A stretch of 64,000 nucleotides of DNA from positions 970,001 to 1,034,000 of the forward strand of contig NZ_CP104311.1 in NCBI RefSeq assembly GCF_036864975.1, given 5' to 3'. This document shows, one piece after another, positions 6,522 through 45,929 of this stretch. Under the pieces are notes generated by a model. The model worked only from the letters and a program-made list of their open reading frames with translations, was not told the DNA's origin and did no database searches. Made by a program: the position numbers and the translations under genes. The stretch's first letter is position 1, and each line of letters opens with the position of its first letter. The stretch comes from Methylococcus capsulatus. Its GTDB lineage: Bacteria; Pseudomonadota; Gammaproteobacteria; Methylococcales; Methylococcaceae.

Positions 6522-7331
6522 TCAGTAAATCGGACTTCCCCCGAAGGGGTTTTTGGTGGGAATGAACGGAAAGCCGCCGAAGTTGGCGCTGTTGCCGAAC
6601 TTGCTCTCGCAGGTGCTCAGGGTGTGATCGCACCCTGGATAGAGCACGACCGTTGCGCCGACCGAGAGTCCCGGCGGCGCCGCCGCGAGGGTGATGCTGT
6701 CGGCCGAATGGGCCACGATCATCCGCTTCTCGGTGATGCCGCTGGCCGACCAGGTGGCGAAACCGCCGGCGAAATGGCCGGGCGCGAAGCCGGCGGCGGC
6801 CGGCACGCTGACGACCGTGCCGGCGATGGACCCGACCGTTCCCTGCACCCGATGGACGATGGGGCTCGCCTGGCAGAGGCCGCCGTAGAGCACGTGCGGG
6901 CAGTTGCGCTGGTACAGCCGCCGCAGCCCGGTGCGCTGCAGGCTCGTGTAGACCGGCTCGCAGTTGAGCTCGACCTCGGAGCCCCGCCATTCGGCGTTGA
7001 GCACGCGCCCCATCCAGACCACCGCCGTCTCTGGCTCACCACGGTGCTGCCGATACACCGTCAGCAACGTCACCTCGGACGGCGGGGTCGCGATGAACTC
7101 ACCGACGACTTCAACGTCCCGGGCCAGGGTGATCCGCAGCCCCGCGCGCCCGATCTCATTGGTCTGCTCGATGCTTCCCCGCTTGAGGAGCACGGCGGTG
7201 TAGTTGAAGGCGTTATAGACGACGTCCTGCGATGCGCTGGTATAGCGCCACGCGTTCGAACCGCGCCGAAACTCGTAGAGTTCGACGGGGCTGGCGGCAT
7301 CGGTCGAAACCTCCCGGTCTGCGTAGGTCAT
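6522..7331 (-). CDS. BR0599-family phage tail protein (DUF2163-like)
   Basis: A 269-residue homologue of the BR0599/GTA tail hub family. It shows 'ELYEFRRGSNAWRYTSASQDVVYNAFNYTAVLLKRG', the central cysteine cluster 'YQRNCPHVLYGGLCQ', and 'LYPGCDHTLSTCESKFGNSANFGGFPFIPTKNPF' near the C-terminus. In GTA the equivalent protein is a cysteine-rich component at the tail hub, possibly metal- or Fe-S-binding. It is part of the distal tail and lies between the large minor tail protein and the small tail-tip genes. The start overlaps the previous stop as ATGA. Confidence 0.87.
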   Translation of the reverse strand: MTYADREVSTDAASPVELYEFRRGSNAWRYTSASQDVVYNAFNYTAVLLKRGSIEQTNEIGRAGLRITLARDVEVVGEFIATPPSEVTLLTVYRQHRGEPETAVVWMGRVLNAEWRGSEVELNCEPVYTSLQRTGLRRLYQRNCPHVLYGGLCQASPIVHRVQGTVGSIAGTVVSVPAAAGFAPGHFAGGFATWSASGITEKRMIVAHSADSITLAAAPPGLSVGATVVLYPGCDHTLSTCESKFGNSANFGGFPFIPTKNPFGGSPIY

Positions 7332-33947: not shown

Positions 33948-34304
33948 TCAAAACGGCACATCGTCGGGCGTGCGCTCCCGCAGGTTGTCGAAGTAGGCGG
34001 TGAGCACCACGTCGACCAGTTGCAGGACCTCCTTGCGGCTGTAGGCCGACAGCGGCCGGTCCATCCCGATGGCGGCGACGTATTCGCCGAGGTGGGGCAG
34101 CACGGCCTCCATCGCGGCCTTCTCGTTGTGGGTGGGATCAATCACGACGCCACCTCCCGCCTTCAGGCTGTGCAGATGGATGTCCTGGCAGCGCATCGAG
34201 CAGAAGCGCTTGAACAGGGGTTTTCCGTCCGGCGCACGCGGGCCATTCCTCGGCGACAGCCAGCAGAAGCCGCGTCCCTCTCGTCCGCAGATCGCGCATA
34301 TCAC
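33948..34304 (-). CDS. DUF6511-type zinc-binding phage protein
   Basis: 118 residues starting at GTG 34304, which overlaps the helicase stop (GTGA). 'ICAICGREGRGFCW' and 'RFCSMRCQDIH' supply two CxxC/CxxxC pairs, probably a zinc ribbon. The rest is helical. Similar proteins (DUF6511) lie beside helicase and nuclease genes of proteobacterial prophages. Role unknown; a replication accessory is plausible. Confidence 0.68.
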   Translation of the reverse strand: MICAICGREGRGFCWLSPRNGPRAPDGKPLFKRFCSMRCQDIHLHSLKAGGGVVIDPTHNEKAAMEAVLPHLGEYVAAIGMDRPLSAYSRKEVLQLVDVVLTAYFDNLRERTPDDVPF

Positions 34305-35977
34305 GCCGCCCTCCGGTGTTCGTCGTTGGCTGCCAGCACGAGGCGCTGGATGGACGACTTGTTGAACTGGAAGGCGAGCAGCGCCGAGGCCTGGTAGCGG
34401 GTGAGCCCGAAGTCGGAACGTATGGCCTGCGGCAGGTAGCGCAGCTGCTTCTCGGTGGGCGGCTCGTTGAGCCAGCGGCGCGTCTTGTGGGCGGTGTCGA
34501 GGGACTCGTTCTCGTTCAACCAGTCGTCCGCCTTGGCCATGCAGACCGTGCGATCGCCCACCGCCAGCAGACGGGGCAGCAGGTCCTTGCCACCGCCGAC
34601 CGCGTGCCAGCGGCCGTTCAGGAAGAAGACGCCACCCCAGGCGCCGAAGCCGGTGGCCATCAATGCATCGTCGCAGCCAAAGAGATCGCACCAGCGGAAG
34701 TTGGAGCGCTTGAGCAGGTCGATCTCCGTCATGACGAAGTCGTCCATGGCTTCCGCCTGCTCGGCCGGATCAATGGTCCATTCGAAGCCGCACAGTGGGC
34801 ACTCGCGGCAGCCGAGCGGCACGGTCGCCTCGCAGGAGGGACACTCCTTGGTGGGCGCCTCGCCCTGGTGCTGGTGGCCGTCCAGGTTGGCCTCCTGCTC
34901 CAGCGAGCCGTGCATGAGCGTCGCGGTGCCGAAGTCGAGCACGATGCAATCGGTCTTGACCACGCCGGGATGCTCGGCCGGGTCGACGGTGCGCAGCCCA
35001 CGACCGATCATCTGGGTCAGTGTCGACTTGTGCGAGCTCGGTCGCAGCAGCACCACGCAGGACGTGGGCGTGTAGTCGTAGCCCTCGGTCAGCACCGCCA
35101 CGTTGACGACGACTTGCGCCTCGCCGGTCTCGTACTCGGCCAGGCGCACCTTGCGTTCGGCGTCCGACAACTCGCCGTGGATCAGCACGGCGCGGATGCC
35201 GGCGGCGACGAAGGCGTCGGCCACGCACTGCGCGTGCGCCACGGTCGAGCAGAACACGATGGTCTTGCGCTCACCTGCCTTCTCGCGCCAGTGGCGGATC
35301 ACCGCGTCGGTGATCGGCGTCTTGTTGAGGATCGCCTCCACCTCGGTCATGTCGAAGTCGGTGGCTGTGCGACGCACCTGGGCGAGGGCCGATTGCGCGC
35401 CGACATCGATGACGAAGGTGCGCGGCGGCACCAGATGGCCAGAGGCGATGAGCTCGCCCAGGGTGATCTGGTCGGCCACGTTGCTGAAGACCTCCCGCAG
35501 CCCCTTGCCGTCGCTGCGTGCGGGCGTGGCCGTGGCGCCGAAGATCAGCGCCCTGGGGTTGCGCGACAGCACGCGATCGATCACGCGCCGATAGGACTTT
35601 GATGCGGCATGGTGCGCCTCGTCGACCACCAGCAGATCGAGCGTGGGCATCGCGTCGAGATGCGCGTCGCGTGAGAGCGTCTGCACCATCGCGAAGGTGG
35701 CGCGCCCGGCCCAGGACTTCTCCTTGGCATCGAACACCGAGGTCGCGACGCCCGGATTGACCCGGCCGAACTTCTCCCGGTTCTGGGCGGTGAGCTCATC
35801 GCGGTGCGCGAGGATGCAGGCCTTCGCGTCGGGCTCCTCCAACACGCCGCCGGCGACCGCCGACAGCATGATGGTCTTGCCGGAGCCGGTCGGGCCGATG
35901 GCCAGGGTGTTGCCGTGCAGGTAGAGCGCGGCGAGCGAGCGCTCCACCAGCAGGGCCTGACGGGGACGAAGCATCAT
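34301..35977 (-). CDS. DEAD/DEAH-box (superfamily II) helicase
   Basis: A 558-residue SF2 helicase. It shows 'GNTLAIGPTGSGKTIML' (Walker A), 'LLVVDEAHHAASKSY' (motif II), 'ALIFGATATPARSDGKG' (motif III), 'TIVFCSTVAHAQCVADAF' and 'MIGRGLRTVDP' (motifs IV-VI). A zinc ribbon follows (ECPSCEATVPLGCRECPLCGF). The C-terminus is phage-specific. It probably remodels replication forks or recombination intermediates. Two adjacent ATGs (35977, 35974) are possible starts. Confidence 0.9.
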   Translation of the reverse strand: MMLRPRQALLVERSLAALYLHGNTLAIGPTGSGKTIMLSAVAGGVLEEPDAKACILAHRDELTAQNREKFGRVNPGVATSVFDAKEKSWAGRATFAMVQTLSRDAHLDAMPTLDLLVVDEAHHAASKSYRRVIDRVLSRNPRALIFGATATPARSDGKGLREVFSNVADQITLGELIASGHLVPPRTFVIDVGAQSALAQVRRTATDFDMTEVEAILNKTPITDAVIRHWREKAGERKTIVFCSTVAHAQCVADAFVAAGIRAVLIHGELSDAERKVRLAEYETGEAQVVVNVAVLTEGYDYTPTSCVVLLRPSSHKSTLTQMIGRGLRTVDPAEHPGVVKTDCIVLDFGTATLMHGSLEQEANLDGHQHQGEAPTKECPSCEATVPLGCRECPLCGFEWTIDPAEQAEAMDDFVMTEIDLLKRSNFRWCDLFGCDDALMATGFGAWGGVFFLNGRWHAVGGGKDLLPRLLAVGDRTVCMAKADDWLNENESLDTAHKTRRWLNEPPTEKQLRYLPQAIRSDFGLTRYQASALLAFQFNKSSIQRLVLAANDEHRRAA

Positions 35978-35991
35978 GCCCGCAGCCCCCC

Positions 35992-36588
35992 TTACTGCGC
36001 CCAGCTCGGACGGCCCGTGATCGGAGCGCGACCCGTGGCTTGGGCATATGCGTTGGGCGTGGTGGGCGCCGGGGCGGACGGACGCGCGTTGCCCATCAAT
36101 GCGGCGTAGTCCTTGTGATCGGGCTGGATCGCCTGCTTGATGACGGCCTTGTCCTGACCGTGCTGATCCTTCTCCCAGTCGACTTTGCCGAGGAACTCGA
36201 TGCCGTCGAGGTCGGCGAAGCCGGCAATGCGCCGGGCGTTCTGGGCCTGGGGACTGGCGTCGCCCGGATGGACGCCGCGCGCGGAGTTCAGGATCGCCTT
36301 GACGAAGGCGCGGCCCATATTGGCCCACTCGGGGCCCTTGGGGCTATGGAGGCCGATCAGCGACCACATCTTGCGGCGGGCGTACTCGCCCTCCATCACG
36401 ACGAACTCGCAGTTGAGGTACACCGAACCGGTGTTGTCGTTGCGGGTGGCGTAGCCGCCGGTCCAGCCCCGGCTCGCATCGTCGAAGCCGCCGGGGCGGA
36501 TGGTCATGCGCACGCGCACCAGCGTGCCCTTGGGGATCAGGTCGAACGAAGACTGCTCGTTGGCATCGTTGAAATCGAAATAACTCAT
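35992..36588 (-). CDS. Phage single-strand-binding-like protein (DUF669-like)
   Basis: A 198-residue protein 'MSYFDFNDANEQSSFDLIPKGTLVRVRMTIRPGG', with 'VYLNCEFVVMEGEYARRKMWSLIGLHS' and a flexible Pro/Ala-rich C-terminus. Proteins of this layout sit beside Sak4-type ATPases in many phages. They are thought to bind single-stranded DNA in the manner of SSB; the flexible acidic or proline tail fits that. No direct motif proves it here. Confidence 0.7.
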   Translation of the reverse strand: MSYFDFNDANEQSSFDLIPKGTLVRVRMTIRPGGFDDASRGWTGGYATRNDNTGSVYLNCEFVVMEGEYARRKMWSLIGLHSPKGPEWANMGRAFVKAILNSARGVHPGDASPQAQNARRIAGFADLDGIEFLGKVDWEKDQHGQDKAVIKQAIQPDHKDYAALMGNARPSAPAPTTPNAYAQATGRAPITGRPSWAQ

Positions 36589-36600
36589 GGTCGTGGCTCC

Positions 36601-37458
36601 TTATTGCTGTACGGGTTCGGAAGGCGCGGGGCGCGCGAAGTCGAGGCGTTCGAGGGCGGGGCGCGCGGGGCCGGCGATCTTGGCCATCAGCCGGCCAAGA
36701 TGCGGCTCCTCGATCTGGTCCAGGCGGCCGGAGCGGTCCTTGGCGGGGTAGCCCCAGGGATTGAGCGTGTGGCAGACGAAGGCGCGGTAGGCGCTGCCGT
36801 CGTCGGCCTTGAGCTCGGCCAGCGTCACCACCTCGTCGACGATGCCCGGCAGCTCGAGCCCGGTCTTGGAACCGTCGATCTGCAGTTGGAAGACGCGGCG
36901 ATTGAAGTCGTCGAGTCGCTCGTCGAGGATGCCGACGAACCACACGTTCTTGCCGCGCGTGTGCTGCAGGTGGGTGAGCCAGGCGATCATCTCCTGGCCC
37001 ATCAGGCCGTAGGCCCCGCGAAGGTCGGGCTTGCCGGTCTTCTCGGAGTAGGCCTGCGGCTGGCCCTTGCACCACTGCAGACACAGACGCCCGGCGACGG
37101 TGATCGAGTCGACGAACACGGTCTCGTACTTGTCGAGCACGCTGGGGTCGCCGAAGCGGGCGCAGACGGCGTCGAAGTGGGCCTGGCTGAACGGCTGGTC
37201 GTCGCGCAGCGCCGGGTTCGGCCCGCCGATGTACACCGCGAAGTCGCGGCATTCCTGCCAGGTGCGCGGCCGGATCGTGTCGCCGGCCCATCCTTCGACG
37301 GCGAGATCGCCCGCCTCGAGGTCGAAGAACAGGGTGGCCTCGGGCGCCAGCGTCCAGAGCTGCGAGGTCTTGCCGATGCCGCTCTTGCCGACCAGCACGC
37401 CCTTGACGCCGCGCTTCTCGGCCAGGCGCTGGTCGGCGGAGATGATGGGAAGGGTCAT
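36601..37458 (-). CDS. Sak4-like RecA-fold ATPase (phage recombination)
   Basis: A 285-residue AAA_24-type protein. It has 'KGVLVGKSGIGKTSQLWTL' (Walker A), 'ATLFFDLEAGDLAVEGW', 'YETVFVDSITVAGRLCLQW' (Walker B) and 'GLMGQEMIAWLTHLQHT'. In phages the family promotes single-strand annealing with a partner SSB, here probably the product of the downstream gene 12 bases away. Its start overlaps the preceding gene's stop as ATGA. Confidence 0.82.
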   Translation of the reverse strand: MTLPIISADQRLAEKRGVKGVLVGKSGIGKTSQLWTLAPEATLFFDLEAGDLAVEGWAGDTIRPRTWQECRDFAVYIGGPNPALRDDQPFSQAHFDAVCARFGDPSVLDKYETVFVDSITVAGRLCLQWCKGQPQAYSEKTGKPDLRGAYGLMGQEMIAWLTHLQHTRGKNVWFVGILDERLDDFNRRVFQLQIDGSKTGLELPGIVDEVVTLAELKADDGSAYRAFVCHTLNPWGYPAKDRSGRLDQIEEPHLGRLMAKIAGPARPALERLDFARPAPSEPVQQ

Positions 37459-37741: not shown

Positions 37742-38212
37742 TCACTCCTTCATCAGGGCGAGGCGGAAGCCGGGCTTGCCGGTCTTGAGCGTGCGGGCGG
37801 GCGCGAAGGCGCTCTTCAGCGACTCCGGCCAGGCGTTGAACTTGGTTTCCGAGACGCGATAGCTGATCTCGACGTACTCGGCCGGGTCCTCGCCGCCGTT
37901 GGCGATGCGGCGAACGACCTCGGCAAGGCGCCGCTGATCCCACTCGACCCGCTTGGGTAGGTCGGCAGTGACGCGCACGTGGCCGTCGTCGAAATGCACG
38001 ACACCGGTATCCTTGCGGGCGGCCAGGCGCAGGGCATGGGCGCGGTCGGCGTATTTCAGTTCGAGTGCCCGGTCGATGTGCTCGACGATGGCGCGGGCCA
38101 CCGAGAGCAGATCGGCGGCATCGTTCTTCAGCTGGAACAGCGCCTCGCTTTGCAGCGCGGCCAGCTCGCCGGCCGGCGTGGCGAGAACCTGGTCGGGGGT
38201 GAGGCGGCTCAT
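37742..38212 (-). CDS. Unrecognised phage early protein (156 residues)
   Basis: Begins MSRLTPDQVLATPAGELAALQSEALFQLKNDAADLLSVARAIVEHIDRALELKYADRAHALR. The N-terminal half is a long helix, and the C-terminal part (VHFDDGHVRVTADLPKRVEWDQRRLAEVVRRIANGGEDPAEYVEISYRVSE) looks globular. I recognise no family. Conserved position between the HTH gene and the Sak4 group suggests a replication/recombination accessory. Confidence 0.62.
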   Translation of the reverse strand: MSRLTPDQVLATPAGELAALQSEALFQLKNDAADLLSVARAIVEHIDRALELKYADRAHALRLAARKDTGVVHFDDGHVRVTADLPKRVEWDQRRLAEVVRRIANGGEDPAEYVEISYRVSETKFNAWPESLKSAFAPARTLKTGKPGFRLALMKE

Positions 38213-38421
38213 GCGACACCTCCCGCGCCGACGCGCTCGGAGGTGCTCTTGCGCAGGCACTCCGCCTCGTAGGACTCGACGTCCTCGACGCGGTAGAGCA
38301 CGCGGCCTTGGATCTTCAGAAAGACCGGCCCGATCCCTTCGGAGCGCCAACGTTCCAGGGTGGCTTCGCTGACGCCCCAACGGTCGGCCAGTTGGCGTTG
38401 GTTGAGGTGTTTGATACTCAC
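38209..38421 (-). CDS. Small HTH protein (AlpA/excisionase-like)
   Basis: A 70-residue MerR-superfamily-like HTH protein 'LNQRQLADRWGVSEATLERWRSEGIGPVFLKIQGRVLYRVEDVESYEAE', typical of AlpA/Xis-type regulators. It is the first gene of the leftward early operon, starts with GTG at 38421, and overlaps the next gene by ATGA. It may act as excisionase for the serine recombinase or as an early transcription regulator. Confidence 0.8.
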   Translation of the reverse strand: MSIKHLNQRQLADRWGVSEATLERWRSEGIGPVFLKIQGRVLYRVEDVESYEAECLRKSTSERVGAGGVA

Positions 38422-38558
38422 GATTCGCTCCTTACGGGTTGTTGCGGAAACGTGAGGTCATTCTGGGTTTCAGGGGGTGGACAAACCGGCGGGCAAAGCG
38501 GGCAGGATGGGCGGGCAAATCGTGCAAATCGGCCCTGCGCAGAGCCGGAAAAGAAAAA
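38422..38558. other. Early-operon upstream region, gene-free
   Basis: Non-coding stretch before the HTH gene. It contains repeated GCGGGCAAA/GGGCAAATCG-type short motifs (about 38480-38535) that could be binding sites of the HTH protein or repressor, but spacing is irregular. The leftward early promoter should lie here; no clear -35/-10 pair stands out to me. Confidence 0.3.
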
Positions 38559-38583
38559 GGCCCGGAGTGGTTGGCTCCGGGCC
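38559..38583 (-). terminator. Rho-independent terminator after DUF2188 gene
   Basis: Perfect stem GGCCCGGAG / CTCCGGGCC with a 7-base loop. On the minus strand it is followed by TTTTTCTTTT, a good intrinsic terminator. It ends the leftward operon starting near 41.1 kb and isolates it from the early operon. Confidence 0.85.
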
Positions 38584-38610
38584 CTTATCGGGGGTGGAAA
38601 TGCGGGGTGG

Positions 38611-38835
38611 TCAGCCGGGAGGCGGGAACGGATCTTTGCCGTAGCTGTTGCGCTCGCGGATCTTCCCGTCCTCGCCCTGGATGAGCACCTCGCTGCCCTG
38701 GTTGCGCGCGATGTCGCGTGCGCGCTCGAAGGCTTCCTGTTGTGTATCGTGTACGGAGGTCAGGCGGTCGTTGCCTTCCCCCCGGACACCCCACTTGTCG
38801 CCGTTGCGGACGACCCACTGGTTCTTACCACTCAT
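38611..38835 (-). CDS. DUF2188-domain protein
   Basis: A 74-residue protein 'MSGKNQWVVRNGDKWGVRGEGNDRLTSVHDTQQEAFERARDIARNQGSEVLIQGEDGKIRERNSYGKDPFPPPG', a full-length match to the DUF2188 pattern (YdeI-like short proteins). I use ATG 38835 with GAGG eight bases upstream. An alternative ATG at 38901 lies in TGATG with the upstream stop and right after AAAGGAGG, but the extra 22 residues look unrelated. Last gene of the operon opposite the repressor. Function unknown. Confidence 0.78.
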   Translation of the reverse strand: MSGKNQWVVRNGDKWGVRGEGNDRLTSVHDTQQEAFERARDIARNQGSEVLIQGEDGKIRERNSYGKDPFPPPG

Positions 38836-38900
38836 GTCATTTACCTCATCCAGATCGAAGTTGAACTGCCGGATGAAAGGATTGCGCTTCGTTGGGTGCA

Positions 38901-39857
38901 TCACCTCCTTTGGTCGTTGACGAATTCGGGTTTCAGCCAATAGTGACCGTCGTTGTCGTGGGCGACGAAGGTGCGGTAGACGGCCTTGTGCCGCTTGCAG
39001 ATGTCCGCGCCCTTGCACTTGTCGACATCGATTTCCAAGGCGTCGGCGATGGTGCGTTTATGGACGGGATCGCCGCCGCCCTGCGCGAGTACCGAAAGAA
39101 AGCGGTAGACCTGGGGCGACAGTGCGTGCCGCTCTCCGTCGATCAGTGCGATGCGGCCGGAGTGCATGAGCCGCAGGGAGGTTTCCGAATCCCGTTCGCC
39201 GATCCCGGCGGAGCCGTCGAGGTATGCGTCGAGATTCTCGATGACGAAGCCGGCCTTGCGGAGATGCGCCACGGCACGCAGCGGAACGACGAGATGGCCG
39301 GCGGCCTGGATCGCTTGGGCGACGTCGGGTGTAGTGGTGATGAGGACGCCGCAACCCGGTGCGCAGGCAGTGCGAAGTCGATGTTCGATGATGGGCGTCA
39401 AGGCCGGGTCGTTCAGCCTTCGACCGAAGAAGATAATGCGCCGCTTTCGCCGATGTTCGATCTCGCCCAGGCGCCACAGCGCTGTCGGAACCAGCTCTTC
39501 ATGTTGATACCGTCCCGCAAGGCCCAGGGCCGAGGCGAGCCAGCGGACGATGCGCGTGATGTCTACCCTGAGCCGTGTCACTTGATCACTGGCCAGATCC
39601 ACCCAGCCGCAGTCCGTGCAGTACCCCTGGCGGCCTCCTTGCTCGAAGCGAATCCCCTCCAGATCGCCCATTCCGCACCAGGGACAGAGAATGCTCGATC
39701 CGACACCGTCGCCCGCCCCGAGGGCGCCGAGGTCGAGGAGATGCCGATAGGCATCCATTTGTCCGGAATACCGGGCGGCATCCGGATGGAGGCTTTCCTC
39801 GGATTCCTCGACGAGCCCGCAGAGCAGGCCGAAGGCGATGTCGTTGCGTGCTTGCAC
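38901..39857 (-). CDS. Unrecognised protein: zinc ribbon plus C-terminal wHTH-like domain
   Basis: 318 residues starting with GTG. Residues ~55-90 contain two CxxC pairs (CPWCGMGDLEGIRFEQ...YCTDCGW), a zinc ribbon. The C-terminal ~80 residues (HALSPQVYRFLSVLAQGGGDPVHKRTIADALEIDVDKCKGADICKRHKAVYRTFV...WLKPEF) resemble a winged-helix effector domain with two extra Cys. The middle 'CGVLITTTPDVAQAIQAAGHLVVPL' looks Rossmann-like. A DNA-binding regulator or sensor is a fair guess. It follows the 407-residue gene by eight bases and overlaps the next possible start. Confidence 0.68.
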   Translation of the reverse strand: MQARNDIAFGLLCGLVEESEESLHPDAARYSGQMDAYRHLLDLGALGAGDGVGSSILCPWCGMGDLEGIRFEQGGRQGYCTDCGWVDLASDQVTRLRVDITRIVRWLASALGLAGRYQHEELVPTALWRLGEIEHRRKRRIIFFGRRLNDPALTPIIEHRLRTACAPGCGVLITTTPDVAQAIQAAGHLVVPLRAVAHLRKAGFVIENLDAYLDGSAGIGERDSETSLRLMHSGRIALIDGERHALSPQVYRFLSVLAQGGGDPVHKRTIADALEIDVDKCKGADICKRHKAVYRTFVAHDNDGHYWLKPEFVNDQRR

Positions 39858-39865
39858 GGCGGCTT

Positions 39866-41089
39866 CTACGCGACCAGGGCCAGTTCGACTTCGGTCGGTT
39901 CGGAGACGCGCCAGGCACGCAGGAGGCGCTCAGCGAGCTTGGCGTCCTCCTCTGCCATGTCCTGGAGGTTGGAGATCCCCGATTGCTTGAGGTCGATATT
40001 CAGTACGCGACCGCGCTTGCCCACCTCGGCAGGGGCGAAGTAGATGCTGATGAGGGCCTCGACGATATTGAACGGACCGCGGAACAGGTCGTGGTCCTTC
40101 AGGTGGGCGCTCGATGCAGCGAGCACGCAGTGTTCGGCCTGATCCGCCGGTACGCCTACCCAGAAGTCGCAGATCGGCGCCCTCGTGCTCCTGAGCCGGG
40201 CGCGGCGGAGGCGAATGCGATCAATGCCGTGGGCGGCGAGGTCGATGTCGCTGTCCTCCGGAAGGTCCAAGCCGTGCCGCAGCCGGTTGAGATAGAACAT
40301 CGGCTGCTTCACTGCCTCGGGCTTGACCTCCTGTTTCAGCAGATGGCGTGCGAAGAGCGTCACCAGCGGCTGGTGGACCTTGGCGCCGCCCCGGCCGACG
40401 GTGTCGACGATGCCGGATGCGGGAAAGTAGACCAGCGCGAGATTGGTCGCCGGGCGGGTCGTTCGGCGGCGCATGCCCTCCTCGACGAACTCCACCAGAT
40501 CGTTGGGATCGTCCTCCACGTAGACGCTGATCTGCACACCGCCGTCCAGGTGACGGTCGCAGACGTCCACATGGCAGGCGCGCCGTGGTCCCTTGCGTTT
40601 CGAGAGCACCTCGGACAAGGCGGCCTGCAATCCCTCGATGTCGGCAGCCTCTCGGGACACCGGCTCGGTCACCTTGATGGCTTGCCGTTTCCACGACCGC
40701 TTGCCGACGCCGAGATCGAATTGGAGCAGCGCCTCCGCCGTCATGAAGGTGTTCGGCCAGTTCACCAGCACCCACAAGGCCCGTTCGGCGTGGTTGCGCA
40801 GTTTTCCGAAGTCCTCCCGAATGGCCGCGTCGTTGTCGCTGGCGTTGAGGATCGCATCGATGCCTTTCTGGGTCGCGAGGGCGTGGGCATGGCGCAGTTC
40901 CGCGTGCAGCAGTGCCTGTTGATCCGGTTCGAGTTCCTCCAGGAGGGCGATCAGGGCATCGGAAAATGCCTTTTCCTCGGCGTTCCAGTCAAAAGATTCG
41001 GGGATGGCGATGGAACGGGAGGACAGATACGCCTGCCAAGTGGTGGCCGGAACCTGACGGGCGAGGTGACGAGGGTTGAACGCGGTCAT
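39866..41089 (-). CDS. Unrecognised 407-residue protein, first gene of repressor-controlled operon
   Basis: Begins MTAFNPRHLARQVPATTWQAYLSSRSIAIPE. It is soluble with no signal or membrane segments. Segments 'WVLVNWPNTFMTAEALLQFDLGVGKRSWKRQAIKV' and 'LALVYFPASGIVDTVGRGGAKVHQPLVTLFARHLLKQE' look globular and conserved, and the C-terminal part is 'IVEALISIYFAPAEVGKRGRVLNIDLKQSGISNL'. I know no family. It is the first gene downstream of a strong promoter overlapped by an operator palindrome and diverges from the XRE/ImmA genes. Defence, superinfection exclusion or induction control are all possible. Confidence 0.68.
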   Translation of the reverse strand: MTAFNPRHLARQVPATTWQAYLSSRSIAIPESFDWNAEEKAFSDALIALLEELEPDQQALLHAELRHAHALATQKGIDAILNASDNDAAIREDFGKLRNHAERALWVLVNWPNTFMTAEALLQFDLGVGKRSWKRQAIKVTEPVSREAADIEGLQAALSEVLSKRKGPRRACHVDVCDRHLDGGVQISVYVEDDPNDLVEFVEEGMRRRTTRPATNLALVYFPASGIVDTVGRGGAKVHQPLVTLFARHLLKQEVKPEAVKQPMFYLNRLRHGLDLPEDSDIDLAAHGIDRIRLRRARLRSTRAPICDFWVGVPADQAEHCVLAASSAHLKDHDLFRGPFNIVEALISIYFAPAEVGKRGRVLNIDLKQSGISNLQDMAEEDAKLAERLLRAWRVSEPTEVELALVA

Positions 41090-41151: not shown

Positions 41152-41173
41152 AACGTTCGGTGTGCCGAACGTT
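41152..41173. promoter_or_regulatory. Operator palindrome AACGTTCGG-TGTG-CCGAACGTT
   Basis: A perfect 9-bp inverted repeat with a 4-base spacer, placed at the predicted start point of the leftward promoter. Related half-sites ATCGTTCGG (41219-41227) and AGAACGAT (41256-41263) lie nearer the XRE gene. It is the probable binding site of the XRE repressor. Confidence 0.72.
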
Positions 41174-41177
41174 TCGG

Positions 41178-41207
41178 ATTGTCTCGGACTGATGCTGGGT
41201 TTGTCAA
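41178..41207 (-). promoter_or_regulatory. Leftward sigma-70-type promoter
   Basis: Minus-strand TTGACA (41207-41202), an 18-base spacer, and GACAAT (41183-41178). Transcription would start near 41171, inside the operator palindrome, so repressor binding should block it. Confidence 0.65.
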
Positions 41208-41275
41208 GCAGGTACGAAATCGTTCGGCGTAGTGGTAACATCTTCGGCCTGACGCAGAACGATTAGGAGATACCG

Positions 41276-41596
41276 GTGCCATCGCCCTTGGGGGACAAGA
41301 TCCGCGCATTGCGGAAACAGAAGAAGCTCAGCCTTGAGCAGTTGGCCGAACTGACCGACTCCAGCAAGAGCTACATCTGGGAGCTGGAGAACAAGGACGA
41401 ACCGAAGCCCTCGGCTGAGAAGATCGGCAAGATCGCTGCCGTACTCGAGGTGACTACAGAATTCCTGCTCACCGAGTCGGCGACCACGCCGGACGAAGAA
41501 GTGCTCGATGAGGCCTTCTTCCGTAAGTACAAAAGCATGTCCGAGCCGGACAAGAAGAAGATCCGCAAGATTCTCGACGCGTGGGAAGATGAATGA
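41276..41596 (+). CDS. XRE-family repressor
   Basis: A 106-residue regulator with an N-terminal HTH 'LGDKIRALRKQKKLSLEQLAELTDSSKSYIWELENKDEPKPSAEKIGKIAAVLEVTTEFLL'. The C-terminal part is short and acidic (FFRKYKSMSEPDKKKIRKILDAWEDE), of the kind found in ImmR/HigA-like repressors. It starts at GTG 41276 with AGGAG upstream and overlaps the ImmA/IrrE gene by ATGA. It is probably the prophage repressor, binding the adjacent palindrome. Confidence 0.88.
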   Translation: MPSPLGDKIRALRKQKKLSLEQLAELTDSSKSYIWELENKDEPKPSAEKIGKIAAVLEVTTEFLLTESATTPDEEVLDEAFFRKYKSMSEPDKKKIRKILDAWEDE

Positions 41597-42504
41597 CAGA
41601 GGCCAAGAAGCCCATGGCCGAGGCCAACCGCATCTCGGCCATGCTCAACACGGTTCTCGGGGCGGATCGGTTTCCCGTCAAGGTCGATGAGCTCGCCCTG
41701 GAGTACTCGCGCCAGTGTTTCGCCGACTCGCCGATCGACAAGATCCGGGGGGAGGATCTGGACGGCTTCGACGGCCTCCTGGCGGCCAACAAGACGCGGT
41801 CGAAGTGGCTGATCCTCTACAACAGCGCCACTCCATCGGAGGGACGCAAGCGCTTCACGATCGCGCACGAGTTCGGTCACTACATCCTCCATCGCCATCA
41901 GCAGGATCGTTTCGAGTGCGGTGACGACGACATCGAGACCGGTGACAACGACGAGCGGGACATCGAGGCCGAGGCAGATCTTTTCGCGTCGACCCTGCTG
42001 ATGCCGCTGGACGACTTTCGGCGTCAGGTCGACGGGCAGCCGATCAGCTTCGATCTGCTGGGTCACTGCGCCGACCGCTACGGCGTCTCGTTGACCGCGG
42101 CAGCTCTGCGCTGGACCGAGATCGCGCCCAAGCGGGCAGTGCTGGTCGCCAGCCGCGACGACCACATGCTGTGGGCCAAGTCGAACAAGGCGGCGCTCAG
42201 GTCTGGCGCCTACTTCGCGACCCGCAGGAACACCATCGAGCTGCCGCACGATGCTCTGGCGCACAGCTACAACGCCTTTGACATGGCCGACAGCCGGACG
42301 GGGCGTGCCCAGTCCTGGTTTGCCCGTGAACCTGCCACCATGCCGATCACCGAAATGACCCGCGTCGCTGCCCAATACGACTACACATTGACCCTGCTGG
42401 TGCTGCCCGAGGCCGAATGGCAGGGCGCGCGCCAGGACGACGAGGAGCCGGAGGAAGACACCTACGATCGTTTCATTCGCAACGGCCAGTATCCGGTGCG
42501 GTAG
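41593..42504 (+). CDS. ImmA/IrrE-family metallopeptidase
   Basis: A 303-residue protein with the zinc protease motif HEFGHYILH near residue 95 and a downstream Glu in 'DIEAEADLFASTLLMP'. ImmA proteins cleave their partner XRE repressor when induced, as in ICEBs1. The ATGA overlap with the repressor gene supports that pairing. The C-terminal ~120 residues are a separate domain of unknown function, longer than in minimal ImmA proteins. Confidence 0.9.
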   Translation: MTEAKKPMAEANRISAMLNTVLGADRFPVKVDELALEYSRQCFADSPIDKIRGEDLDGFDGLLAANKTRSKWLILYNSATPSEGRKRFTIAHEFGHYILHRHQQDRFECGDDDIETGDNDERDIEAEADLFASTLLMPLDDFRRQVDGQPISFDLLGHCADRYGVSLTAAALRWTEIAPKRAVLVASRDDHMLWAKSNKAALRSGAYFATRRNTIELPHDALAHSYNAFDMADSRTGRAQSWFAREPATMPITEMTRVAAQYDYTLTLLVLPEAEWQGARQDDEEPEEDTYDRFIRNGQYPVR

Positions 42505-42521
42505 CCCATGGCGGATCGATC

Positions 42522-43736
42522 GTGAGCGCCCACAAGTGGCAATTCACCTCCCGTTTTCGCCGTCATGCGTTCGGCTGGCGATCCGACACGCCGGTGCAGC
42601 GGATCAAGGAAGCCATCGCGGAGATCAAGCAGGTCGCACGCAAGGAGCCTGTTCTCGCAGCTGAGGGCGCCATCACCCTGCTGGAAAAGCTCTCGCCAGC
42701 CCTGGAGCAAGTGGACAGCTCATCGGGCGCCCTGGGTTCGGCCGTCAACAAGGCCATCGACACCCTGGTGCCCATCATCGTCAAAGCGGATGTCGAGCCA
42801 CAGATGCGGCGACGCTGGCTGGAGCGTTTGTGGCAGGCGCTGCAAGACGACGAAATGCCCTACATCGAACTACTGGGCGACTACTGGGGCGAGCTGTGCG
42901 TGACCCCGGAGCTGGCGTCACACTGGGCCGACGAGTTCATGCCGGTCGTCGAAAGCGTATGGAGCCCGAAGGCGTCTGGCCACGGATTCTTCAAGGGCAC
43001 GAGCGCCTGCCTGGCATCCCTGTGTGCGGCAGGCCGCCATCAGGAACTGCTGGCGTTGCTCGACAAGGCGCCTTTCAAGTGGTGGCACGACCGGCGCTGG
43101 GGTGTGAAGGCACTGTCGGCGATGGGCAAGAAGGCGGAAGCGATCCGCTACGCCGAGGAATCACGTGGTCTCAATGACCCGGGTTGGCAGATCGCGCAAG
43201 CCTGCGAGGCCCTCCTGTTGTCCTCCGGGTTGATCGACGAAGCCTACCGGCGCTATGCCTTGGAGGCGAATCAGGGCACAACGAACCTGGCGACGTTTCG
43301 TGCCATTGCCAAGAAGTATCCCGACAAGCTGCCGGAAGAGATCCTGCGCGACCTGATTGCCAGCACGCCCGGCGCCGAAGGCAAATGGTTTGCCGCTGCC
43401 AAGGACGCGGGTCTCTTCACCGTGGCTGCTGAACTGGCGACACGCAGCCCGACCGATCCGCGCACCTTGACCCGCGCCGCCCGCGATTGTGCCGTGAAGC
43501 AGCCTGACTTCGCGCTCGCCGCCGGCCTGGCCGCGTTGCACTGGATCTCCCTCGGATATGGCTACGACATCACCGGGGCTGATGTGCTCGATGCGTATTC
43601 GGCAGTCACGCAGGCGGCGGCAGGCGCAGGCGTCCCTGCCCAGCGCGTCAACGAGCAGATCCGGGAAATGATCGCCAGCGCTCAGCCCGGAGATTCGCTG
43701 GTGAAGACGATCCTCGCCCGTCATTTATCGAACTGA
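42522..43736 (+). CDS. Unrecognised helical-repeat-like protein, third gene of repressor operon
   Basis: 404 residues from GTG 42522, 17 bases after the ImmA/IrrE stop. It is almost wholly helical with repeated pairs of the type 'LLALLDKAPFKWWHDRRWGVKALSAMGKKAEAIRYAEESRGLNDPGWQIAQACEALLLSSGLIDEAYRRYAL', suggesting a TPR/alpha-solenoid protein-binding scaffold. No catalytic motif is evident. Association with the repressor and protease is conserved only as far as this window shows. It could sense the inducing signal or be an independent cargo gene. Confidence 0.7.
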   Translation: MSAHKWQFTSRFRRHAFGWRSDTPVQRIKEAIAEIKQVARKEPVLAAEGAITLLEKLSPALEQVDSSSGALGSAVNKAIDTLVPIIVKADVEPQMRRRWLERLWQALQDDEMPYIELLGDYWGELCVTPELASHWADEFMPVVESVWSPKASGHGFFKGTSACLASLCAAGRHQELLALLDKAPFKWWHDRRWGVKALSAMGKKAEAIRYAEESRGLNDPGWQIAQACEALLLSSGLIDEAYRRYALEANQGTTNLATFRAIAKKYPDKLPEEILRDLIASTPGAEGKWFAAAKDAGLFTVAAELATRSPTDPRTLTRAARDCAVKQPDFALAAGLAALHWISLGYGYDITGADVLDAYSAVTQAAAGAGVPAQRVNEQIREMIASAQPGDSLVKTILARHLSN

Positions 43737-44080: not shown

Positions 44081-44574
44081 AGGCAAGCACCGTCCCACCC
44101 ACCCCGCCGAGCGTCGTCGCCCGGATCGCCGGGCTCCCGGATCTCTCGATAGAGGAAATGAGGGCGCTTTGGCGAGAACTCTTCGGCAGCGACAACCCAA
44201 CGCCCAATCGCCAGTTCATGGAGAGGCGGATCGCCTACAAGCTGCAGGAGATCGAGTTCCGCAAGGTCGATCCCAACCTGCTGGAGCGCAACAAGCGGCG
44301 CATCAAGGCCCTGGTGGAGACCGGCAAGGCGCGCAAGCTCGATCGCGACATCCGGCTGATGCCCGGCACCGTGCTCACCCGGGAGTACCAGGGGATCGAG
44401 CACCGGGTGACGGTCGCCCAGGACGGGCAGTACGAGTTCGAGGGCAGGCGCTACCCGAGCCTGTCCATGATCGCCCGCGAGATCACCGGCACCCGCTGGT
44501 CCGGGCCGCTCTTCTTCGGCGTGAAGGCACCGGCCAAGGCGAAGAATCCGAAGAAGCAGGGAGGTCGGCGATGA
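44077..44574 (+). CDS. DUF2924-domain protein
   Basis: 165 residues. 'RIAGLPDLSIEEMRALWRELFGSDNPTPNRQFMERRIAYKLQEIEF' and 'MPGTVLTREYQGIEHRVTVAQDGQYEFEGRRYPSLSMIAREITGTRWSGPLFFGV' are the two DUF2924 halves. The latter is a RAMA/SAWADEE-like small domain probably binding DNA or modified bases. It is always next to a serine recombinase gene in such modules and overlaps it by ATGA here. Confidence 0.88.
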   Translation: MKASTVPPTPPSVVARIAGLPDLSIEEMRALWRELFGSDNPTPNRQFMERRIAYKLQEIEFRKVDPNLLERNKRRIKALVETGKARKLDRDIRLMPGTVLTREYQGIEHRVTVAQDGQYEFEGRRYPSLSMIAREITGTRWSGPLFFGVKAPAKAKNPKKQGGRR

Positions 44575-45929
44575 GCGAAGCCCTGAAGCGCCGCCTGCGC
44601 TGCGCCGTCTACACTCGGAAGTCCACCGACGAGGGGCTCGACCAGGAGTACAACTCCATCGACGCCCAGCGTGACGCCGGCCACGCCTACATCGCCAGCC
44701 AGCGCGCGGAGGGCTGGATTCCGGTGGCCGACGACTACGACGATCCCGCCTTCTCCGGTGGCAACATGGACCGGCCGGCGCTCAAGCGGCTGCTGGCCGA
44801 CATCGAGGCCGGCAGGATCGACATCGTGGTGGTCTACAAGATCGATCGCCTGACGCGATCGCTGACTGACTTCTCGCGAATGATCGACGTCTTCGAGCGC
44901 CACGATGTGTCGTTCGTCTCGGTCACCCAGCAGTTCAACACCACCACCTCGATGGGGCGGTTGATGCTCAACATCCTGCTCTCCTTTGCCCAGTTCGAGC
45001 GCGAGGTGACCGGCGAGCGCATCCGCGACAAGATCGCCGCCAGCAAGCGCAAGGGCATGTGGATGGGTGGCGTGCCGCCGCTCGGCTACGACGTCGACAA
45101 CCGGCGGTTGGTGCCCAACGAGCGCGAGGCCAAGATCGTCCGCCACATCTTCCAGCGCTTCGTCGAGCTCGGGTCCTCGACCCTGCTCGTGAAGGAGCTG
45201 CGCCTCGACGGCGTGACCTCCAAGGCCTGGACTACCCAAGACGGGCGGGTGCGCGATGGCAAGCCCATCGACAAGAGCCTCGTCTACAAGATCCTCAACA
45301 ACCGCGTCTACCTGGGCGAGATCCGCCATCGCGATCAGTGGTATCCGGGCGAACACCCGCCCGTCGTCGAGCGCAGGCTGTGGGATGCCGCCCAGGCGAT
45401 CCTCGCGCAGAACTCGCGTGTGCGAGGCAACAACACCCGCGCCCGGGTGCCGTTCCTGCTCAAGGGGATCGTCGTGGGGATCGATGGCCGGGCGCTCACG
45501 CCCTGGTCCACGCGCAAGAAGAACGGACGTATCTACCGCTACTACCTGCCGACGCGGGAGAACAAGGAGCACGCCGGCGCCTCCGGGCTGCCGCGCTTGC
45601 CGGCCGGTGAGCTGGAGGCCGCCGTGCTGGAGCAGATGCGCCGGGTGCTGCGCGCACCGGACATGATCGCCGGGGTAGCCGAGCATGCCGCCCGGCTCGA
45701 CCCCTCCCTGGACGAGGCCCAGGTCACGGTGGCCATGACCCGGTTGGATGCGATTTGGGATCAGCTCTTCCCGGCCGAGCAGCAGCGCATTGTGCGACTC
45801 CTCATCGACAAGGTGATCGTCTCGCCGAACGACATCGAGGTGCGGTTCCGGCCCAACGGCATCGAGGTGCTCGCCCTGGAGCTGCGCCCCGAGCCCACCC
45901 CGGAAACCCTTGAGGAGGCCGTGGCATGA
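44571..45929 (+). CDS. Large serine recombinase (phage integrase)
   Basis: A 452-residue site-specific recombinase. The resolvase N-domain has the nucleophile in 'AVYTRKSTDEG' (Ser18), then 'DIVVVYKIDRLTRSLTDFSRMIDVFERHDVSFVSVTQQFNT', 'LLSFAQFEREVTGERIRDKIAASK'. It is followed by the Recombinase domain 'GVPPLGYDVDNRRLVPNEREAKIVRHIF' and a C-terminal helical part. It should integrate and excise the prophage at short att sites. It is preceded by GGGAGG at good spacing and coupled to genes on both sides. Confidence 0.93.
   Translation: MSEALKRRLRCAVYTRKSTDEGLDQEYNSIDAQRDAGHAYIASQRAEGWIPVADDYDDPAFSGGNMDRPALKRLLADIEAGRIDIVVVYKIDRLTRSLTDFSRMIDVFERHDVSFVSVTQQFNTTTSMGRLMLNILLSFAQFEREVTGERIRDKIAASKRKGMWMGGVPPLGYDVDNRRLVPNEREAKIVRHIFQRFVELGSSTLLVKELRLDGVTSKAWTTQDGRVRDGKPIDKSLVYKILNNRVYLGEIRHRDQWYPGEHPPVVERRLWDAAQAILAQNSRVRGNNTRARVPFLLKGIVVGIDGRALTPWSTRKKNGRIYRYYLPTRENKEHAGASGLPRLPAGELEAAVLEQMRRVLRAPDMIAGVAEHAARLDPSLDEAQVTVAMTRLDAIWDQLFPAEQQRIVRLLIDKVIVSPNDIEVRFRPNGIEVLALELRPEPTPETLEEAVA

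Follow-up and report, generated by a model that had tools for sequence, protein, structure and literature searches.

Within 64,000 nucleotides of the Methylococcus capsulatus genome (contig NZ_CP104311.1, positions 970,001 to 1,034,000; this whole stretch is the window, and all coordinates below count from its first letter), a prophage carries a leftward operon of three genes, the first two of which, here called P1 and P2, quite probably encode a two-protein transcription activator that would relay DNA damage to the phage's replication operon. The case for this is built from comparisons of sequence and genomic layout. A repressor of the damage-sensing type with one site, at the P1 promoter, combined with direct repeats that match the P1-P2 allele and lie at the -35 position of the next operon, is best read as such a relay.

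P1 (407 aa; 39866-41089, minus strand) is followed by P2 (318 aa; 38901-39857, minus strand), and P2 by a DUF2188 protein (96 aa; 38611-38901, minus strand; Pfam PF09954, E=5.5e-25; PADLOC candidate PDC-S16, 1.4e-35) whose start overlaps the P2 stop (ATGA). The operon has a sigma-70-like promoter at 41178-41207 (minus strand; TTGACA-18-GACAAT) and an intrinsic terminator at 38556-38586 (minus strand; a 12-pair stem, then a T-run). Immediately downstream of the -10, and covering the expected start site, lies the operator (41152-41173), a perfect inverted repeat with 9-bp arms and a 4-bp centre, AACGTTCGG-TGTG-CCGAACGTT; two imperfect copies of its half-site are found on the capH side (41218-41264, with arms at 41218-41230 and 41252-41264). 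In the opposite direction run a CapH-like XRE repressor (41276-41596, plus strand; PADLOC capH, E=5.2e-32) and a CapP-like M78/ImmA metalloprotease (41593-42504, plus strand; PADLOC capP, E=1.4e-73; Pfam PF06114, 9.5e-19). The sequence-only reading of this DNA had described just such an operon, complete with promoter, operator, terminator and divergent XRE/ImmA pair, and had taken it for a self-contained inducible unit inside a prophage; all of these elements are present, and the unit does look inducible.

The operator core, GTTCGGN4CCGAAC, is present as a single copy in the 64-kb window, at the P1 promoter, leaving CapH with this one exact site there. Among the 74 loci where XRE and P1 are divergent, the core falls within the XRE-P1 interval in 61, and the remainder of the 995,199 bases of those 74 loci holds no exact copy. 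Its occurrence follows the repressor: it is found in 56 of the 57 loci whose CapH is at least 70% identical to that of the window, and in 5 of the 17 loci below 70%. In 51 of these 57 loci P1 itself is less than 30% identical to the window's, and the core is there in 50 of the 51. Among the approximately 24 window open reading frames (ORFs) scanned for family matches, no second CI-type repressor was seen. In other CapH/CapP pairs, as excerpts of PMC13373217 describe, a protease activated by single-stranded DNA (ssDNA) cleaves the repressor. The window regulators resemble those of CapH-CapP immune operons in matching PADLOC capH and capP, and in the placement of the operator between the repressor and the controlled operon; they differ in that the operon controlled here has no recognised immune effector, and in that other P1-P2 members use LexA-like or XRE-ImmA+PIN regulators. 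In an IMG/VR sample (the best 80 loci, by identity of the replication-operon ATPase described below, of at least 599), 50 loci cover the whole interval between the integrase/repressor side and the ATPase; their regulators are CapP+XRE in 32, LexA-like in 11, CapP+PIN in two, CapP alone in one, XRE alone in one and none in three.

Downstream of the operon terminator and ahead of the replication operon lie three direct repeats (TTTGCCCGCC, TTTGCCCGCC and TTTGTCCACC; 38476-38519, minus strand), with starts 22 and 12 bp apart, which are the proposed P1-P2 binding site, and 10 nt past the last of them comes a -10-like CAGAAT (38460-38465, minus strand). The promoter scan detected no sigma-70-like promoter at the 38460-38465 site, and a search for further pairs of this repeat (unit A) across the window found none beyond 38476-38519. 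The first gene of the putative target operon encodes a small helix-turn-helix (HTH) protein of excisionase/MerR-like type (38209-38421, minus strand; phrog_66, 1.6e-8). This layout recurs widely: 62 of 73 unique P2-HTH gaps (82 loci) contain some 9-mer three or more times in a 75-bp stretch, where dinucleotide shuffles lead one to expect 1.7 such gaps, and the steps between copies are mostly 12+23, 22+12 or runs of about 11 bp, although a few differ (e.g., L168 and L176; loci are numbered with an L). In 56 of 66 sequences (the 62 gaps plus four multi-ubiquitin loci, see below) the final scored repeat is followed after 9-13 nt by the start of a -10-like hexamer, across different repeat units; in this count the window was scored by its first repeats only, giving 27 nt, and the third repeat gives the 10 nt mentioned above. 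With loops of up to 8 nt allowed, 55 of 76 distinct gaps have a terminator-like hairpin between P2 (or DUF2188) and the HTH gene (0.2-0.4 expected); with loops of up to 20 nt, 68 of 76 do (0.8 expected), including 10 of 11 LexA-type gaps at the latter setting (the exception being L075), so that P1-P2 is as a rule a separate transcription unit.

The repeat unit varies with the P1-P2 allele, being GCCCGTACAT in clade B, TTTGAGGAA in a LexA clade and TCCTNCC in Magnetococcales. Of 17 clade-A loci, 16 have unit A downstream of P2 and none has unit B; of 71 clade-B loci, 66 have unit B there (68, if two sites displaced by insertions are counted) and none has unit A; in 48 other loci the 900 nt that follow P2 contain neither unit. 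Outside this stretch of 900 nt there are four unit-B matches that represent the proper site before the HTH gene, which insertions have displaced in two loci (L135 and L193), and one stray unit-A match (L068). Where no exact unit is matched, variant repeats are seen in L104, L139 and L192, and no repeats in L165. In the 106 loci with both ATPase and P1 (5565 pairs, which are not independent of one another), 606 pairs have ATPases at least 95% identical, and in 162 of these P1 is less than 30% identical, as is P2 in 162, whilst the integrase (237 pairs) is always at least 75% and the helicase (368 pairs) always at least 71% identical. P1 is also decoupled from CapP, as P1 proteins 99% identical occur with CapP at 43%, and P1 proteins 17-18% identical with CapP at 94-97%. 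Judged by these identities, P1-P2 is exchanged as a block. It is present, for all that, in every one of the 50 complete IMG/VR loci, 48 with a separate P2 and two (L138, L145) with a fused one, and for this reason the view of P1-P2 as cargo in a variable slot was set aside as the leading one.

The same kind of arrangement is seen away from replication genes. In four loci (L014, L063, L064 and L065), which stand outside the ATPase family, P1-P2 lies directly upstream of a Multi_ubiq-JAB-ThiF(E1) operon. The gap that separates P2 from the Multi_ubiq gene contains repeats of ATTCACAC or TTCACCCC type in all four; their steps are 10-12 and 21-23 bp (in L064 the second is split by an extra repeat match), and a -10-like element follows (CATAAT, CATACT, AATACT or CATACT). 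The three genes matched, Multi_ubiq, JAB and ThiF, include none for replication, a point in favour of transcription activation and against an origin. It may be that these are Bub-like operons controlled by an activator of this sort. In L065, an XRE-ImmA pair and a PIN gene lie on the other side of P1-P2.

P1 and P2 form an old, nearly always paired module. By profile, P1 relatives are found in 18 of 369 genomes of the class (the window's own included), in 51 loci of the genome_contigs set and in IMG/VR, and identities between P1 clades drop below 20%. P2 is adjacent and on the same strand in 48 of 50 genome_contigs loci with P1; the other two are L100, cut by a contig end, and L109, where no P2 was found. 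In the class survey, P1 is incomplete in L057, which lacks P2, while L061 and L062 each have just a fragment matching the N-terminal 84 residues or so of P1, with a methylase-like ORF beside that of L061. Both fragments and L057 were excluded from the structure alignments, as were the P1 genes split over two frames (L020, L054, L070 and L106), which were used as separate pieces only. Natural P1-P2 fusions occur in five loci (L138, L145, L162, AcaML1 gp6 and L015, the last in the window's own genome), all with both profiles in order (P1 at 2.9e-63 to 8.2e-32, P2 at 1.2e-22 to 1.5e-30). The L015 fusion (G000:C1:883000-898000) belongs to a second serine-recombinase element of this genome, is preceded by an HTH/PIN-like pair and shares its gene order with AcaML1 gp8-gp7-gp6. 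Fused-type elements, AcaML1 and L015 among them, also show, upstream of the HTH gene, AACGAAA/AACCGAAA repeats with spacings of 9 and 15 (L199, about 6600-6829; L015, near 6588), a site of a different kind from the repeats at 38476-38519. The expectation that the three genes of the operon would keep company with the XRE/ImmA pair thus holds for the P1-P2 pairing; XRE/ImmA is the commonest regulator but is replaced in other members, and DUF2188, present in clade-A loci, was not found in L014 and L018-L020 (later loci were not searched for it).

By sequence, neither protein matches a family of known function; the sequence-only reading had likewise been unable to place P1. In scans of Pfam, PHROGs, NCBIfam and PADLOC the only strong match of P1 is to phrog_37634 (E=5.2e-226), whose function is unassigned and whose model also matches AcaML1 gp6 (6.9e-10); P2 gave weak matches only in Pfam, PHROGs, NCBIfam and PDB-sequence searches, and neither protein matched any family of PADLOC-DB 2.0.0 at E up to 1. 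A tblastn search with P1 gave no phage hit and a single plasmid hit (Tenderia); with P2 there was no hit in either. Thirty-five P1 members compared with Pfam at E up to 10 touched 17 families, each with a single member (the best being RecC_C, 0.0038), RdgC, CENP-N and DUF4747 not among them; hhalign of P1 to 54 RdgC and three RexA sequences stayed at the level of unrelated controls, and a profile-profile comparison of P1 with P2 gave noise. Foldseek gave structural matches for both. The P1 model (predicted local distance difference test, pLDDT, 86.5) begins with helices, is rich in beta strands in its middle and finishes with a beta-beta-alpha-beta-beta-alpha part, and its PDB matches, all with probability 1.00, are yeast Chl4 (8ovw_N, 3.0e-6), human CENP-N (7.3e-5) and E. 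coli RdgC (2owl_A, 4.0e-4), with a recombination-associated protein (7.2e-5) among the viral models of BFVD; template modelling (TM) scores are low, about 0.2-0.44, so that the match is one of domains and topology. P1 is therefore predicted to fold like RdgC and the kinetochore proteins Chl4/CENP-N, a fold shared with lambda RexA, but at the level of sequence it shows no homology by which it might be filed as RdgC (PF04381) or RexA. At its C-terminus the P2 model (pLDDT 85.1) has a winged helix that most resembles OmpR-type domains, with NsrR (5dcm_A; probability 1.00, TM-score by target 0.65, E=0.11), CadC (5ju7; probability 1.00, E=0.04) and YycF together matching at probabilities of 0.98-1.00 and E-values of 0.04-0.3. 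P2 was earlier described as a zinc-ribbon/winged-helix protein; the winged helix comes from the predicted structure, and the ribbon (C58, C61, C80 and C83) from that and from an Rpb9-type ribbon matched weakly by profile (1qyp, E=0.0025), the cysteines of P2 being lost in several relatives.

OmpR/PhoB-type regulators use 11-bp steps, and P2 would be like them both in its predicted C-terminal fold and in the steps of about 11 bp between the P1-P2 repeats; it differs from them in having no receiver domain, and instead a zinc ribbon and a second, RdgC-like subunit. The predicted fold of P1 likens it to RexA, RdgC and Chl4, which are DNA-binding proteins, RexA acting at the phage lysis-lysogeny switch. 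It differs from RexA and RdgC in giving no sequence signal and in being transcribed divergently from the repressor, and its partner is P2, whereas that of RexA is RexB, a membrane protein. Excerpts of PMC11077077 (2024) describe the common fold of lambda RexA, RdgC and Iml3/Chl4, the DNA binding of RexA and RdgC, and the bias that RexA imposes on the lysis-lysogeny switch of lambda.

Starting from this anatomy, the relay would run as follows. In the lysogen, CapH on the operator would silence P1-P2. Damage or infection would give rise to ssDNA, CapP would become active and CapH would be cleaved, steps known for CapH/CapP elsewhere, upon which P1-P2-DUF2188 would be transcribed as an isolated unit up to its own terminator. 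P2 would then read the downstream direct repeats by its OmpR-type winged helix, with P1 as its RdgC/RexA-like, DNA-clasping partner, and the P1-P2 complex would replace the missing -35, so letting RNA polymerase initiate from the -10-like element that precedes the HTH/replication operon. A pair of this sort would likewise switch on the ubiquitin-like operon of the multi-ubiquitin loci. A precedent is the SetR/SetC-SetD system of SXT/R391 elements and AcaCD of IncC plasmids where, according to excerpts of PMC4344509, a DNA-damage-sensitive repressor silences a two-protein activator, and SetCD switches on the transfer and excision genes of the element from promoters without a -35. The P1-P2 anatomy (i.e., operator, repeats, distance to the -10 and allele matching) seems to fit such a relay, and we take the best explanation to be one that works like SetC-SetD but from unrelated proteins: SetCD is FlhCD-related, and no FlhC or FlhD family is among the Pfam, PHROGs and NCBIfam matches of P1 and P2, whilst SetR is a self-cleaving, lambda CI-type repressor, as opposed to CapH with its protease CapP here. 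Among the options offered by the sequence-only reading, then, the evidence favours the induction switch, and its statement that the operon is not replication fits P1 and P2 themselves but not their likely target.

Several observations weigh against the relay. The E-values of the P2 winged-helix matches are modest (0.04-0.11). Since 74% of shuffled tails contain a -10-like hexamer at some point, only its fixed distance, and not its presence, is informative; similarly, 0 to 25% of the shuffles of single multi-ubiquitin loci produce three repeats as well, which leaves the shared geometry as the support for the repeats there. Owing to kinship among the loci, some of which are one and the same phage (the 17 clade-A loci have 13 distinct P1 and the 71 of clade B have 60), the counts overstate independence, and since the repeats lie within a few hundred bases of P2, allele matching could partly be hitch-hiking. 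No phased repeats were found downstream of P2 in L018, L050, L052, L053, L071, L110 and L112, nor in L020 and L198, where the P2 profile match reaches almost to the end of the protein; the AcaML1 and L015 fusions have none there or upstream of the HTH gene. For L018, L050, L052 and L053 the lack of repeats also counts in favour of the relay, as in these four the P2 profile match breaks off ahead of the winged helix. Finally, P1-P2 bound to the repeats could repress rather than activate.

Superinfection exclusion or anti-phage defence, in the manner of lambda RexA or CarolAnn (DUF4747), was another option of the sequence-only reading, and would have P1-P2, induced by ssDNA, block an infecting phage by DNA binding. 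We consider it unlikely, although more than one feature recommends it: the predicted RexA/RdgC/Chl4 fold of P1, the extreme allele divergence of P1-P2, the neighbours of some copies of the pair (Zorya type I genes in L018 and HerA and a type II methylase in L020, both loci lying outside the ATPase family, and, by eye, Type I/III restriction-modification genes in L052 and L053), and the QatC carried by a related element without P1-P2. CapH/CapP-type regulation is, in addition, reported for immune operons, and a damage-responsive CapK/CapS precedes the DUF4747/CarolAnn system in 17 cases (both in excerpts of PMC13373217). A search for DUF4747 found none in 339 genomes and none in 14 controls either, hence is uninformative. 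What defence fails to explain is the constant presence of P1 in the complete IMG/VR loci, unlike typical cargo, and the matched repeats before the phage's own replication operon; besides, no effector or membrane domain was recognised in the pair and PADLOC offers no match for either protein.

Less likely still is that P1-P2 is a replication initiator, i.e., a Rep/O-like complex with the repeats as iterons of the phage origin, the two being exchanged together as initiator and origin are in the lambdoid O-ori types. Winged helices are common in initiators, and the repeats do adjoin the replication operon and co-vary with the P1-P2 alleles; however, a similar layout of repeats and -10 precedes the Multi_ubiq-JAB-E1 genes, and the distance from the repeats to the -10-like element is fixed. 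The least likely proposal, that P1-P2 is a Cro-like repressor delaying the replication promoter or an RdgC-like modulator restraining RecA during phage recombination, draws on the predicted RdgC-like fold of P1, the RexA bias on the lambda switch (PMC11077077) and the location of the repeats where a -35 would be, but the promoter scan gave a repressor nothing sigma-70-like to repress at the window target, and a RecA modulator would have no need of allele-specific repeats.

If the relay is real, phrog_37634 acquires a function, a RexA/RdgC/kinetochore-like fold becomes tied to transcription activation at the lysis-lysogeny switch, and there is a hint at how some bacterial ubiquitin-like operons are induced. 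Regulators of the ImmA/CapP type are common in prophages and immune islands, and the route from repressor cleavage to the rest of the element is often unclear; the anatomy reported here offers a testable answer, in form of a dedicated activator pair with readable, allele-specific promoter sites. More tentatively, and with the chances falling slightly short of even, P1-P2 could be a portable two-protein activator family built on a bacterial version of the RexA/RdgC/CENP-N fold, with an allele-specific promoter code and with interchangeable sensors (CapH/CapP, LexA-like, XRE-ImmA+PIN) and targets (phage replication and ubiquitin-like conjugation operons), a scheme we hold just as tentatively in these particulars. 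Were it so, phage induction and a bacterial ubiquitin-like pathway would be run by the same kind of switch. No paper naming the pair was found in the PMC literature, where it has no agreed name to search by.

The element around the operon, in a genome of 3.43 Mb, contains genes for an endolysin, a tail fibre, a ParB/methylase, a primase/helicase, a helicase, an AAA ATPase and a serine integrase. The helicase of the replication module (34301-36328, minus strand, ORF as listed) matches phrog_16 (6.5e-84) and the large serine integrase (44571-45929, plus strand) phrog_95 (2.2e-111). The AAA ATPase of the replication operon (36601-37458, minus strand), which is 31% identical to a Vibrio phage protein annotated as Sak4-like, served as marker of the phage family in the surveys, with AcaML1 at 69% and, further off, the Wolbachia WO phages at 52-56%. 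In the class survey it occurs in 10 of 369 genomes, among which G194 has the pair in another arrangement, the contig of G292 is too short to judge by, and G390 is without P1-P2 and has QatC instead. The G390 element (L196; G390:C13:235000-254000) is a related but more distant serine-recombinase element whose QatC-like gene (PADLOC 2.1e-59) has a neighbour encoding an unknown protein of 262 aa. In the window, capP is followed by a gene for a function-unassigned protein of about 404 aa (42522-43736, plus strand, start as in relatives; weak DUF6880 match), which also follows capP in 12 of the 51 genome_contigs loci (cluster C9) and in many IMG/VR loci, and may belong to the CapH/CapP operon.

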